A stretch of DNA of 64,000 bases from Tepidiformaceae bacterium. Lineage in GTDB: Bacteria; Chloroflexota; Dehalococcoidia; Tepidiformales; Tepidiformaceae. The DNA is taken from the NCBI GenBank assembly GCA_958295975.1, contig OY282446.1, forward strand, positions 186,001 through 250,000, read 5' to 3'. Below are positions 25,819 through 50,486 of this stretch, piece by piece. Position numbers and translations under genes: made by a program. The notes under the pieces were generated by a model. That model was given only the letters and a program-made list of their open reading frames with translations, made no database searches and was not told the DNA's origin. Every line of letters starts with the position of its first letter. Position 1 is the stretch's first letter.

Positions 25819-27228
25819 ATGGGCGGCGCGCGCCGGGATGGCGTGGCGCGCCAGGATGGCGGTGTGTCCTCGCTTCGCGCCCTCCCCGGCGTCGAGACCG
25901 TGCTCGCCGAGCTGCGCGGCGGCGGGCATCCGCACGCGCTGGCGCTGGAGGCGGCGCGCACGGCCATCGCGCGCGCCCGCGAGGCCGTGCGCAATGGCGG
26001 GCCCGCGCCCCCGACGGCGGCCATCGCGGCGGAGGCGCAGGCGATCCTGCGGCGGCTCGCGCGCCCCTCGCTGGGCCGCGCCGTGAACGCCACGGGCGTC
26101 ATCCTGCAGACGAACCTGGGGCGCGCGCCCCTCGGCGAGCGCGCCATCGCGGCCATGACCGAGGCCGCGCGCGGCTATTCCAACCTCGAATTCGACCTGG
26201 CGGAGGGGACGCGCGGCTCGCGCCACGAGCACGTGCGCGACCTCGTCCGCCGCGTCACGGGCGCGGAGGACGGGCTCGCGGTGAACAACAACGCCGCCGC
26301 CCTGCTGATGGCGCTGCAGGTGTTCGCGCGCGGGCGCGAGGTGATCGTCTCGCGCGGCGAGGCGGTGGAGATCGGCGGGCGCTTCCGCATCCCCGACGTG
26401 CTGCGCGAAAGCGGCGCGCGGCTGGTCGAGGTGGGCACGACCAACCGCACCTACGCCGCCGACTACGCCGCCGCGCTGGGCGACGAGACCGCCGCCATCC
26501 TGCGCGTGCACCGCTCGAACTTCGAGGTGACGGGCTTCACGGCGCGGCCCGAGGCGTCCGAGCTGGCGGCGCTGGCGCACGCGCGGGGCGCGCTCCTGCT
26601 CGACGACCTCGGCAGCGGCTGCCTCGTGGAAACCGTCGACTACGGCATCCCCCACGAGCCCACCGTGGGGGAGAGCCTGCGCGCGGGCGCGGACCTCGTG
26701 CTGTTCAGCGGGGACAAGCTGCTGGGCGGGCCGCAGTGCGGCGTCATCGCCGGGCGGGAGGCGCTCGTGGCCGAACTGCGGCGGCATCCGCTGGCGCGCG
26801 CCCTGCGCGTGGACAAGCTCACCATCGCCGCCCTCAACGCCACCCTCGCCGCCTACCTCGCGGGCGCGGAACGCGAGGAGATCCCCGTCTGGCGCATGTT
26901 GGCGCTGGACGAACCGCAGCTGCGCCCGCGGGCGGAGGCCTGGGCGCGGGCGGCGGGCGGGCGCGGGCGCGTGGTCGAATCGCGCTCCGTGGTCGGCGGG
27001 GGCGCGGCGCCGGGCGCGGGACGGCCCACGTGGTGCGCGGCCCTGCGCGCCGAACGCGGGGCGGAGCGGCTGACGCGCGCCCTGCGCGGGGCCGACCCGC
27101 CCATCGTCGCGCGCGTGGAGGACGGCGAGACGCTGCTCGACCCGCGCACCGTGGACGAGCGCGACGACGCCCACGTGGCCGCCGCCATCGCCGCCCTCAC
27201 GGCGCCGGACGCGGGCGGGCGCCCGTGA
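25819..27228 (+). CDS. selA: L-seryl-tRNA(Sec) selenium transferase
   Basis: About 469 residues (454 from the alternative GTG at 25864, which has AGGA 7 nt upstream). SelA converts seryl-tRNA(Sec) to selenocysteinyl-tRNA(Sec) with PLP and selenophosphate. Signatures are RAVNATGVILQTNLGRAPL, VNNNAAALLMAL, LLDDLGSGCL and the Schiff-base lysine in LFSGDKLLGGPQCG. Its presence implies that the organism encodes selenocysteine, although selB, selD and tRNA-Sec are not in the window. The stop overlaps the rex start (GTGA), a coupling to a redox regulator. Confidence 0.93.
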   Translation: MGGARRDGVARQDGGVSSLRALPGVETVLAELRGGGHPHALALEAARTAIARAREAVRNGGPAPPTAAIAAEAQAILRRLARPSLGRAVNATGVILQTNLGRAPLGERAIAAMTEAARGYSNLEFDLAEGTRGSRHEHVRDLVRRVTGAEDGLAVNNNAAALLMALQVFARGREVIVSRGEAVEIGGRFRIPDVLRESGARLVEVGTTNRTYAADYAAALGDETAAILRVHRSNFEVTGFTARPEASELAALAHARGALLLDDLGSGCLVETVDYGIPHEPTVGESLRAGADLVLFSGDKLLGGPQCGVIAGREALVAELRRHPLARALRVDKLTIAALNATLAAYLAGAEREEIPVWRMLALDEPQLRPRAEAWARAAGGRGRVVESRSVVGGGAAPGAGRPTWCAALRAERGAERLTRALRGADPPIVARVEDGETLLDPRTVDERDDAHVAAAIAALTAPDAGGRP

Positions 27229-27860
27229 GCGACGACATCCCCGAGGTCGTGGTCAACCGCCTGCCGCTCTACGCGCGGGCGCTCACGCGGCTCGCCGCCG
27301 CCGGGGAGCGGGTGGTCAGCTCGCAGCGGCTGGGCGGAGAGCTGGAGGTGACGCCCGCGCAGATTCGCAAGGACCTCAGCTACTTCGGGCGCTTCGGCAC
27401 GCAGGGGCGCGGCTACGACGTGGACGGGCTGCTGGAGCGGCTGCGCGCCATCCTCGGGCTGGACCGGCGCTGGCGCGTGTGCGTGGTCGGCGTCGGGCGG
27501 CTGGGGCAGGCGGTGCTCGAATACGAGGGCTTCGCGCGGCAGGGGTTCCACATGACCGCCGCCTTCGACGCCAGCGCCGCAGTGGCGGGACGCACCATCC
27601 GCGGCGTGGCGGTGCGCGCCATGGACGAGCTGGAGGCCAGCCTCGCACGGGAACCCGTCGACATCGCCGTCGTGACCGTGCCCGCCGCCGCCGCCCAGGA
27701 GGTGGTGGACCGGCTCGCGGCGGGCGGCGTGCGCGCCATCCTCAACTACGCGCCCATCTCCGCGCACGCGCCGCCGGGCGTCGTCGTCCGCCAGATCGAC
27801 CCCGTCGTCACGATGCAGGCCATGACCTACCACCTGAAGGCGCCGGACGGGGATCGCTAG
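27225..27860 (+). CDS. rex: Redox-sensing transcriptional repressor Rex
   Basis: A 211-residue dimeric repressor sensing the NADH/NAD+ ratio. The N-terminal winged helix (SQRLGGELEVTPAQIRKDLS, YFGRFGTQGRGYDV) is followed by a Rossmann domain with VVGVGRLGQAVLEYEGF and the C-terminal swapped helix with YHLK. All parts typical of the family are present. It is translated from a GTG overlapping selA. Its 3' end overlaps the convergent kinase gene by 4 nt. Regulated operons usually include respiratory or fermentative genes; none with a clear Rex site was found here. Confidence 0.95.
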   Translation: MSDDIPEVVVNRLPLYARALTRLAAAGERVVSSQRLGGELEVTPAQIRKDLSYFGRFGTQGRGYDVDGLLERLRAILGLDRRWRVCVVGVGRLGQAVLEYEGFARQGFHMTAAFDASAAVAGRTIRGVAVRAMDELEASLAREPVDIAVVTVPAAAAQEVVDRLAAGGVRAILNYAPISAHAPPGVVVRQIDPVVTMQAMTYHLKAPDGDR

Positions 27861-28414
27861 CGCTCCGGCGGCAGCGCCTCCGCCAGCCAGCGCGCGACGG
27901 CGGCGGGCGAGCGCAGCCGCACGAACCCCGCCCGCTGGCGCGGATCGGCCATGTGCGCGGCGTAGGCGCGACGGCGGCGGCGGTGGCTCGTCAGCGTCCA
28001 CCAGACGAGCGAGCGGTCCCAGGGCAGGAGGTGCACCCAGAAGCGCTCGCGGTTGACGCCCCAGAGCAGCTCGCGCTCGCGCCAGCGCCGCCACGAGCGC
28101 GCGAAGGTGCGCGGCAGCGTGACGCGCAGGGGCAGGTCGAGCCACACCACCGTGTCCGCCGCCGCGAAGGTGAGGTCGCCGAGGGAGCTGAGGTAGTTGC
28201 CGTCCACCACCCAGCCGGGCTCGGCCAGTGCCTCGCGTACGCGCCGCCGCAGTTCGTCGCGGGGAACCTCGGTCCAGCCCGGGGCCCAGTTGAGCGCGTC
28301 GATCTCGACGTGGCGCAGGCCGAGGCGCGCGGCGATGGCCGCGGCCAGCGTGGTCTTGCCGGAACAGCTGTCGCCCACGACGCGCACGTTGGGGCCGATG
28401 GCGGGGCGCGTCAT
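27857..28414 (-). CDS. P-loop nucleoside/nucleotide kinase-like protein
   Basis: A 185-residue protein with Walker A GDSCSGKTTLAAAIA near the N-terminus and a following HVEIDALNWAPGW, the pattern of adenylate-kinase-like 'topology modulation' proteins. The lid region is rich in Arg and Trp (ARSWRRWRERELLWG, RSLVWWTL). The substrate is unknown. The ATG shares one base with the mreB stop (TGATG), so it is the last gene of the atp-murA-mreB strand. Confidence 0.8.
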   Translation of the reverse strand: MTRPAIGPNVRVVGDSCSGKTTLAAAIAARLGLRHVEIDALNWAPGWTEVPRDELRRRVREALAEPGWVVDGNYLSSLGDLTFAAADTVVWLDLPLRVTLPRTFARSWRRWRERELLWGVNRERFWVHLLPWDRSLVWWTLTSHRRRRRAYAAHMADPRQRAGFVRLRSPAAVARWLAEALPPER

Positions 28415-29475
28415 CAGCGTTCGGGCTGGGGGAAGAGGCCCACGAGCTGCTCCTCTTCGGTGGGCAGGCTGCGCTCGATGATCTCGAGGTGGTCGAGGGC
28501 GATGGCCGCGCCGATGGCGACGCATTCGAGAGGACCGTCGGCCACGTAGCAGGGCACGCCCGTCTCCTGCGTGAGCAGCTGGTCGAAGTGGCGCAGGAGG
28601 GCGCCGCCGCCGGTGAGCACGATGCCGCGGTCGATCACGTCGGCGGCCAGCTCGGGGGGCGTGCGCTCCAGCACGCCGCGCACGGCCAGGATGATCTGGC
28701 CGAGCGCGTCCTGGATGGCCTGCGCGATCTCGTCGCTCCCGACCGTGATCGTGCGGGGCAGGCCGTTAATCTGGTCGCGCCCGCGCACCTGCGTGTCCAG
28801 GCCCTCGCCGAGGGGGATGGCGGAGCCGATGGCGATCTTGATCTCCTCCGCCGTGCGCTCGCCGATGATGAGGTTGTGGCGGCGGCGCACGAACGACTGG
28901 ATGGCCTCGTCGATGCGGTCCCCGGCGACGCGCACGGATTCGCTCGCGACGATGCCGTAGAGGGAGATGATGGCGGCCTCCGTGCGCCCCCCGCCGATGT
29001 TCACGATCATGTTGCCGCGGGGCGTGCCCACGGGCACGCTCGCGCCCAGGGCGGCGGCCAGCGGTTCGGGCACGAGGTGGGCGGGGCGGCGCGCCCCCGC
29101 CTGCTCCGCCGCGTCGCGCACGGCGCGCTGCTCCACGCTGGTGATGCCCACGGGCACGGTCACCATGATCTCGGGGCGCACGAGGCTGAAGCGCCCCGCG
29201 ATGAAGCCGATGAAGTAGCGCAGCATCGCCTCCGTCGTGAGGTAGTCGGCGATGACGCCCTCGCGCATGGGGCGGATGATGCTGAGCGCGCCGGGCGCGC
29301 GCCCCTGCATCGTGCGCGCCTCCGCGCCCACGGCCACGAGCGCGTTGTCGCGGTTGTGGCGCGCGACGACTGACGGCTCGTTCACCACGATGCCCTGTCC
29401 CTGCACGAACACGAGGATGTTGGCCGTGCCCAGATCGATGCCCGCGCGCGTGCCCGAGAGGAAGCCGAAGGGCAT
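28414..29475 (-). CDS. mreB: Rod-shape determining protein MreB
   Basis: A 353-residue bacterial actin that polymerises under the membrane and directs lateral wall synthesis. Phosphate-1 loop GIDLGTANILVF, TVPVGITSVEQRAV, the phosphate-2 region NMIVNIGGGRTEAAIISLYG and the adenosine loop VLTGGGALLRHFDQLL are all present. Length is a little above the usual 330-345. murA lies 3 nt upstream. The murA-mreB order after the ATP synthase genes recalls the murAA-mbl arrangement of Bacillus. Confidence 0.95.
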   Translation of the reverse strand: MPFGFLSGTRAGIDLGTANILVFVQGQGIVVNEPSVVARHNRDNALVAVGAEARTMQGRAPGALSIIRPMREGVIADYLTTEAMLRYFIGFIAGRFSLVRPEIMVTVPVGITSVEQRAVRDAAEQAGARRPAHLVPEPLAAALGASVPVGTPRGNMIVNIGGGRTEAAIISLYGIVASESVRVAGDRIDEAIQSFVRRRHNLIIGERTAEEIKIAIGSAIPLGEGLDTQVRGRDQINGLPRTITVGSDEIAQAIQDALGQIILAVRGVLERTPPELAADVIDRGIVLTGGGALLRHFDQLLTQETGVPCYVADGPLECVAIGAAIALDHLEIIERSLPTEEEQLVGLFPQPER

Positions 29476-29478
29476 GGC

Positions 29479-30750
29479 CTAGGCCCGCTCGATCTCGACG
29501 CCGAGCGCGCCCAGCTTGCCGTCCAGCCGCTCGTACTTGCGGTCGAGGTGGAACACGTCGTCGATCACGGTGGTGCCGGCGGCGCGCAGGGCGGCCAGCA
29601 GCACGGCGGCGCCCGCGCGCACGTCGAGCGCGCGCAGATGCGCGCCGTGCAGGGGCGCGGGCCCGCTGACGATGGCGGAGGCGCCCATGCTCACGATCTC
29701 GGCCCCCATCTTGCGCAGCTCGCCCACGTACAACATGCGGTTGTCGAACACGCGCTCATGGATGACGGAGACGCCCTCGGCCTGCGTGAGCAGCGCCGCC
29801 AGGGGGGCATGCAGGTCGGTGGCGAGCCCCGGATAGGGCAGCGCCTGGAAGCTCACGGGGGCGAGGCGCTCGCCGGCGGCCACGCGCATGGCGTCCGCGC
29901 TCGCCTCCACCGTGGCCCCGCAGGCGCGCAGCTTGCTCACGAGCGCGTCCACGACGGAGACCGGGGCGTCCTCGATCTCCACGTCCCCGCCGCTGATGGC
30001 GGCGGCCACGGCGAAGGTGCCCGCCTCGATGCGGTCCGGCGGCAGGCGGAAGGTCGCGCCGTGCAGACGCTCCTCGCCGCGCACGGTCACCATCTGCGTG
30101 CCCGCGCCCTCGACGCACGCGCCCATGGCATTGAGCAGCTGCGCCAGCGCCTGCACCTCCGGCTCGGTGGCGGCGTTGACGATGGTGGTCTCGCCGCGGG
30201 CCAGCGCCGCCGCCATCATGATGTTCTGCGTGCCGGAGACGGAGGGGTAGTCGACGAACACGCGCGCGCCGGTGAGGCCGCCGGGGGCGCGCGCCTGCCA
30301 GAACTCGCCCGCGCGGGCGATGACCGCGCCCATGGCCTCGAAGCCGAAGAGGTGCGCGTCGATGGGGCGCTGGCCGATCACGTCGCCGCCGGGCGGCGGC
30401 AGGGAGGCGAAGCCGTGGCGCGCGATCAGCGGTCCCATCACCTGGAAGGAGGCGCGGTTCTCCGTGATCAGCTCGACCGGCGCCTCCAGCACGTTCACGC
30501 CGCCGCCGTTGACGGCGACGCGATCGGGCGCGGGCCGCTCCACGCGCGCGCCCAGCGCCGTCAGCAGCTCGGCAAGCGAGTCGATGTCGGAGACGTCGGG
30601 CACGTTGTCGAGCACGACGGTCTCGTCGCTCAGGAGGCAGGCGCACATGGCCGCCAGCGCCGCGTTCGCCGAGCCGGAGACGCGCACGCGCCCGCGCAGC
30701 ACCGCGCCGCCGCGCACCCGATACTGGCCGTTGGCGCGTCGGGAAGCCAT
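29479..30750 (-). CDS. murA: UDP-N-acetylglucosamine 1-carboxyvinyltransferase (MurA) with altered active site
   Basis: A 423-residue EPSP-synthase-like protein for the first committed step of peptidoglycan synthesis, enolpyruvyl transfer to UDP-GlcNAc. Conserved are N29, R99 (NRAS), R128 and H133 in the GQRPIDAHL loop, the TD pair in PGLATDLHA, and the DNRMLYVGEL region. Two key residues differ from E. coli MurA: the K22 position is A28 in SGSANAAL, and the C115 position is D123 in PPGGDVIGQRP. C-to-D is known from natural fosfomycin-insensitive MurAs; loss of K22 is not usual. A possible -10 (CATACT) lies 7 nt before the ATG, apart from atpC. Confidence 0.9.
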   Translation of the reverse strand: MASRRANGQYRVRGGAVLRGRVRVSGSANAALAAMCACLLSDETVVLDNVPDVSDIDSLAELLTALGARVERPAPDRVAVNGGGVNVLEAPVELITENRASFQVMGPLIARHGFASLPPPGGDVIGQRPIDAHLFGFEAMGAVIARAGEFWQARAPGGLTGARVFVDYPSVSGTQNIMMAAALARGETTIVNAATEPEVQALAQLLNAMGACVEGAGTQMVTVRGEERLHGATFRLPPDRIEAGTFAVAAAISGGDVEIEDAPVSVVDALVSKLRACGATVEASADAMRVAAGERLAPVSFQALPYPGLATDLHAPLAALLTQAEGVSVIHERVFDNRMLYVGELRKMGAEIVSMGASAIVSGPAPLHGAHLRALDVRAGAAVLLAALRAAGTTVIDDVFHLDRKYERLDGKLGALGVEIERA

Positions 30751-30806: not shown

Positions 30807-31261
30807 TTAGCCGCCGACGGGGCGGGGAGCGCCCGTGGCCGCGCGGCGGCGGCGGCGTTCGGCCACGCGCAGGCGCAGGAGCGCGCGCTGCATGGCCGCC
30901 CGCGCGCGCGCGAGGTCGGTGTCGCCCATGTCCGGCTCGTGGCCCTCGCGCAGGCGCGCCTCGGCCCGCTGGCGGGCCTGCTCGGCGCGGTCCACGTCGA
31001 TCTCGTCGGCGGCCTCGGCGGCGTCGGCGAGCACGGTCACGCGGTTGTCGCGCACCTCGAGGAAGCCGCGCTCGATGGCGAAGACGGATTCCTCCGCGCC
31101 GCGCCGGAAGACGAGCTCGCCGTACTCCAGCGTGGTCATGAGGGGCGCGTGGCGGGGCAGGATGGCGAGCTGGCCCTCGCTGCCGGGCGCGATCAGCACG
31201 TCGACCGCCTCCTCGGTGCGGACGACGCGCTCGGCCGTGACGATCTCGACGGAGAGGGGCA

Positions 31262-31262
<1 letters not shown>
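30807..31262 (-). CDS. atpC: F1Fo ATP synthase epsilon subunit
   Basis: A 151-residue central-stalk subunit. The N-terminal beta-sandwich is clear (SVEIVTAERVVRTEEAVDVL, GSEGQLAILPRHAPLMTTL), followed by a helical C-terminal part that is longer than usual and ends in a basic run (RVAERRRRRAATG). The GTG start shares a base with the atpD stop (TAGTG). It is the last gene of the ATP synthase operon. Confidence 0.93.
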
Positions 31263-33444
<2,182 letters not shown>

Positions 33445-33452
<8 letters not shown>

Positions 33453-50223: not shown

Positions 50224-50294
50224 CGACATGCGCGCGCGGTTGACGGCGGGCGCGTTTGGCCCCAGCATGGAGCGCGCACATTCCGAAGGGAATC

Positions 50295-50380
50295 TGCCGC
50301 CGGGGGGGCCGCAAGGCTGAGATCCGCGAGGACAACCCCAGGAACCTGATCTCGGTAATGCGAGCGTAGGGAAGCGGCGA
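50295..50380 (+). ncRNA. TPP riboswitch (THI element)
   Basis: The thi-box is read directly: CTGAGA at 50317, an ACCC block, GAACCTGATC at 50342 and GGTAATGCGAGCGTAGGGAA, closed by a P1 stem GCCGC/GCGGC (50296-50300 with 50374-50378). Binding of thiamine pyrophosphate should lower expression of the ABC transporter operon that begins at 50516. Confidence 0.93.
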
Positions 50381-50486
50381 CATGGCGCGACATCCGGCAG
50401 ACGAGGTCCCGCGGGCGCATCCGCGTCCGGCCAGCCATCGCTGAGGCGCGCCCTCCCCGTTCCCCGCCCGCCCCCGAATCAGGCGT

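Follow-up and report, generated by a model that had tools for sequence, protein, structure and literature searches.

MurA is the UDP-GlcNAc 1-carboxyvinyltransferase of peptidoglycan synthesis, and the phosphonate of its inhibitor fosfomycin mimics the phosphate of PEP. The role of Lys22 in this enzyme is disputed, and the residue has been regarded as a general acid, a PEP anchor or a conformational trigger. In Escherichia coli MurA, Lys22 joins Arg120 and Arg397 in holding the phosphonate of fosfomycin (PMC4790336). Saturation editing in E. coli revealed that position 22 tolerates only F, I, N and T in place of lysine, and that Gly398 is among the least tolerant positions of MurA, with G or T accepted according to the table and serine according to the text; neither A22 nor K398 is listed as tolerated singly (PMC9842644). 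The third position considered here is Cys115. In vitro, the E. coli C115D variant retains activity and is insensitive to fosfomycin, and several genera carry aspartate naturally at this site (PMC4790336).

The window, which is the whole analysed stretch of 64,000 nucleotides from a Tepidiformaceae genome, encodes a MurA of 423 amino acids (Table 1). Its frame begins with ATG and contains no internal stops. The protein is covered over its whole length by the NCBIfam murA profile TIGR01072 (470.6 bits, cut-off 392.7), while its score against the aroA profile is 81.2 bits, below the cut-off of 287.25; alignment with relatives of known structure also places it in MurA. The AlphaFold2 model (mean pLDDT 93.4) matches the two-domain inside-out alpha/beta barrel of the solved MurA enzymes, and the closest structures are closed, liganded forms such as 1uae (1.1 Å over 414 residues, Z 60.6). 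AroA/EPSP synthase and NikO have the enolpyruvyl transferase fold in common with the protein, at an identity of only 20–27%.

The closest described systems are the MurA enzymes of E. coli and E. cloacae (TIGR01072; PDB 1uae, 3kqj), with which the window protein shares the fold, the length and the pathway context. It has the same R120, R397, D305, N23, R91 and H125 (E. coli numbering) and all other invariant residues, whereas K22 is replaced by Ala, G398 by Lys and C115 by Asp. Among the features by which a MurA is recognised, the loop residue Cys115 or Asp115 is found as Asp123, and Asp305, Arg120, Arg397, Arg91 and Asn23 are all present; the aligned equivalents of N23, H125 and D305 are N29, H133 and D312. 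Lys22 of the PEP pocket, a conserved feature rather than a formal membership criterion, is absent. The natural C115D enzymes of Mycobacterium tuberculosis, Chlamydia and Borrelia have Asp at the Cys115 position, as in the window, and alkylation by fosfomycin is not expected at Asp115 in either case. Those enzymes keep K22 and G398, both of which are changed in the window protein.

The first-pass annotation, a reading of the letters of this locus, had reported that the K22 and C115 equivalents are replaced by A28 and D123 and that N23, R91, R120, H125 and D305 are retained, and alignment with E. coli MurA bears out both statements. It overlooked G398K (K405), the second change at an otherwise invariant site. 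Its description of K22 as essential is overstated, as the K22F, K22I, K22N and K22T variants are viable in E. coli, alanine not being among the viable replacements (PMC9842644).

Table 1. Features of the murA locus and its surroundings (window coordinates; residue equivalents in E. coli numbering)
Feature	Coordinates	Strand	Remarks
murA CDS	29479..30750	-	423 aa; MurA carrying K22A, C115D and G398K
Ala28	30667..30669	-	position of Lys22; codon GCG
Asp123	30382..30384	-	position of Cys115; codon GAC; common state in Chloroflexota
Lys405	29536..29538	-	position of Gly398; codon AAG; proposed replacement lysine
Arg404	29539..29541	-	Arg397, kept; codon CGC
Arg128	30367..30369	-	Arg120, kept; codon CGC
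Arg99	30454..30456	-	Arg91, kept; codon CGC
atpC	30807..31262	-	ATP synthase epsilon; upstream neighbour of murA
mreB	28414..29475	-	downstream neighbour of murA
crotonase/enoyl-CoA hydratase-like gene	32694..33452	-	between atpG and atpD
selA	25825..27225	+	L-seryl-tRNA(Sec) selenium transferase
rex	27222..27857	+	redox-sensing repressor Rex
TPP riboswitch aptamer	50292..50389	+	RF00059

The distribution of these residues was followed in an alignment of 155 MurA rows, nearly all from Chloroflexota; the rows from outside the phylum are one of Bacillota and that of E. coli, whose reference sequence agrees with the PDB alignments. All nine members of the window's genus carry SGSANAAL around position 22. 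Elsewhere in the family the sampled genera have SG(A/G)KN, apart from a single sister-genus genome (G017, genus code g13) with SGSANAGL. Among the other rows, the 142 that extend over position 22 all have lysine at it, and three are truncated at this point. The G398K change (DRGYE to DRKYE) occurs in exactly the ten genomes with K22A, and glycine is found in the remaining 145 of 145. Taken as a pair, residues 22 and 398 read K/G 142 times and A/K ten times, with three rows truncated at 22; the mixed states A/G and K/K are absent from the 155. From 24 columns that are invariant in the 145 other rows, just 22 and 398 differ in the ten, and the remaining 22 columns are intact in every A/K protein. 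A22 and K398 are fixed together in these ten genomes.

At the DNA level, the pattern HxxRKYE, applied to 393 genomes of the class, matched only murA of the nine genus members and one unrelated chance HFESKYE, and a wider K398 pattern applied to the 38 genomes of the order added murA of G017 and one chance match. For each of the two codon changes, AAG to GCG-type and GGN to AAG-type, a minimum of two base substitutions is required. The SGSAN motif recurs in the eight remaining genus members and in one genome of the second genus, which excludes an error of sequencing or assembly. The K22A change is real and rare, and it is confined to ten genomes among the MurAs sampled. In the literature searched, mostly outside subscription journals, no report of a natural MurA lacking Lys22 was found. 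Position 227 is Arg in the window protein (near 30070) and Ala in the other eight of the nine genus members, and it varies outside the genus too.

Aspartate at position 115 has a much wider distribution, with Asp in 128 of the 155 rows and Cys in 27. Outside the ten genomes, 116 rows with Asp115 have a residue at 22, which is lysine in all of them. The C115D state is ordinary among Chloroflexota and has no connection with the K22 change; the annotation was right to call it a known natural state.

Since K22, R120 and R397 hold the fosfomycin phosphonate, the simplest reading of the A/K pair is an active MurA with a moved lysine. At a probability of about 0.7, the protein would be a functional and sole MurA in which the lysine of the pocket has shifted from residue 22 to residue 398, with K398 replacing K22. 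In the ancestor of the window's genus and its sister genus, K22 would have been lost to alanine and a lysine gained at 398, directly after Arg397. Lys398 would supply the third positive charge for the PEP phosphate beside Arg120 and Arg397, and Ala22 would give room to its side chain, whose ammonium would replace that of K22. Asp115 would act for Cys115, as it does in the other enzymes with a natural C115D, and the product would remain enolpyruvyl-UDP-GlcNAc, destined for peptidoglycan. A possible path leads through K22T, viable in E. coli, which would be a one-base step from lysine toward alanine. Catalysis, the placement of the K398 side chain and the functional replacement of K22 are what we infer; K398 could serve another purpose, e.g., conformational closure, and full compensation for K22 may not be required, since some uncharged residues at this position are viable in E. 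coli.

The changed mechanism proposed in the first-pass annotation is possible in a limited sense. A different lysine in the K22 place was the finding that the annotation had set against its own proposal, and the alignment points to K405 (G398K) as probably this residue. A deeper change, in which the chemistry itself differs, is doubtful; K398, beside R397 and Asp115, would then perform proton transfer or control product release, the order of steps and the inhibitor sensitivity would differ, and the two changes would show reciprocal sign epistasis, i.e., each alone would be harmful and both together active, in the active site of an essential enzyme that is invariant elsewhere.

It could also be argued that an active MurA does without position 22 in the C115D background and that K398 is incidental or structural, with no replacement of K22. 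Such a proposal draws on the four viable E. coli substitutions (PMC9842644) and on the fact that the link between K398 and the phosphate is one that we infer. It is nevertheless unlikely, considering that Lys22 is kept in every other untruncated row, including all 116 with Asp115, and that G398 is equally invariant, yet precisely these two positions change together. The moved-lysine reading, on the other hand, predicts that K22A and G398K would each be harmful in E. coli MurA, and that the double change would work. A natural MurA that lacks Lys22 but has gained a lysine at another site, apparently of the same pocket, allows charge and position to be told apart. It offers a specific candidate for the relocation of a functional residue inside an essential enzyme, and suggests that a near-universal active site, the target of an antibiotic, can be rewired in nature.

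Whether the cell depends on this MurA can be judged from the remaining genes of the genome, which is a single 2.40 Mb contig with an estimated completeness of 96.2%. When the whole genome was searched by family and by protein, only two genes of the EPSP family were found, the window MurA and one AroA, which is encoded separately and has retained the lysine motif DKS. The suggested coexistence with a second MurA is contradicted by these searches, as far as a 96%-complete genome shows. An unrecognised MurA or a bypass encoded in the unassembled few percent, for which the completeness estimate leaves room, is highly improbable against an assembly in one contig and the single MurA match in each of eight other genus members (89–95% complete, independent assemblies).

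The pathway around the enzyme is intact. One cluster encodes FtsI, MurF, MraY, MurD, FtsW, MurC, MurB and Ddl, together with a full-length MurG that scores under the curated cut-off, and MurE is encoded elsewhere in the genome. MurB, the user of the MurA product, is present in nine of the nine genus members, and G017 has MurB and several Mur ligase genes. Retention of MurB argues against a bypass by MurNAc salvage (AmgK/MurU). The gene is under strong purifying selection, with dN/dS between close genus members of 0.05–0.10, compared with 0.04–0.06 for relatives with K22. In a phylum sample, 13 Dehalococcoidia genomes of other families gave no MurA match; therefore, MurA is lost where it is unneeded. 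The link drawn earlier to Dehalococcoidia without peptidoglycan does not hold here: the MurA-free genomes belong to other families, the Mur pathway of this genome is complete, and peptidoglycan is known from Tepidiforma, a genus of this family (PMC10284905). The window gene is neither a pseudogene, nor a specialised second MurA, nor the MurA of a wall-less lineage. An active MurA is the parsimonious reading because of the single copy, the full pathway, the low dN/dS, the peptidoglycan of Tepidiforma and the loss of MurA where it is unneeded.

A loss of MurA function is unlikely. Variants of MurA at K22 were long considered inactive, and the gene adjoins mreB; the protein might then have become a regulator, an MreB partner or the catalyst of a different enolpyruvyl transfer, with UDP-MurNAc made or salvaged otherwise. 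Such another role, also raised in the first-pass annotation, is quite improbable in the face of the 22 retained invariant columns, the MurB in every genus member, the purifying selection, and a genome with neither a second MurA nor any EPSP-family gene other than AroA. The adjacency of murA and mreB signals no new role, as the order atpC-murA-mreB is class-wide.

The longer order atpA-atpG-atpD-atpC-murA-mreB is common to most loci of the class, which marks murA as a vertical ortholog. The MurAs of Tepidiforma and of other genera of the family are orthologs in the same neighbourhood, mostly with 68–72% identity and with Asp115, and unlike the window protein they keep K22 and G398. The RpoB tree groups G017 with the window's genus at a support of 100/100. 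A free MurA tree sets G017 apart from the genus, on a very long branch of about one change per site, while a tree constrained to join them has the higher likelihood. Independent convergence in the sister genus is disfavoured by the long branch, the constrained-tree likelihood and the RpoB support, and a single origin is preferred because of the latter two. The A22/K398 pair most likely arose once, in the ancestor of the genus and its sister genus. As RpoB places G017 with the genus, the pair was retained through a long divergence, with the G017 MurA at 57% identity and on its long branch. The ten genomes most likely represent one evolutionary event and two retained lineages, not ten independent events.

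The G017 genome is 1.4 Mb in size, with an estimated completeness of 86%, and its murA locus (L048) has about 42% G+C, with frames that look far less G+C-rich than those of the window. These features suggest a reduced, fast-evolving sister lineage. Within the ATP synthase operon of the window, atpG and atpD are separated by an inserted crotonase/enoyl-CoA hydratase-like gene. Other genera of the family share this insertion (loci L062, L063, L065, L066, L067, L075 and L076), but the Tepidiforma loci L069 and L072–L074 gave no crotonase-like match.

Elsewhere in the window, selA was recognised at 512.8 bits (cut-off 267.9), and this match suggests the use of selenocysteine in the lineage. The gene of the redox-sensing repressor Rex lies directly downstream of selA. 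A TPP riboswitch aptamer (RF00059) was detected at 64.7 bits.
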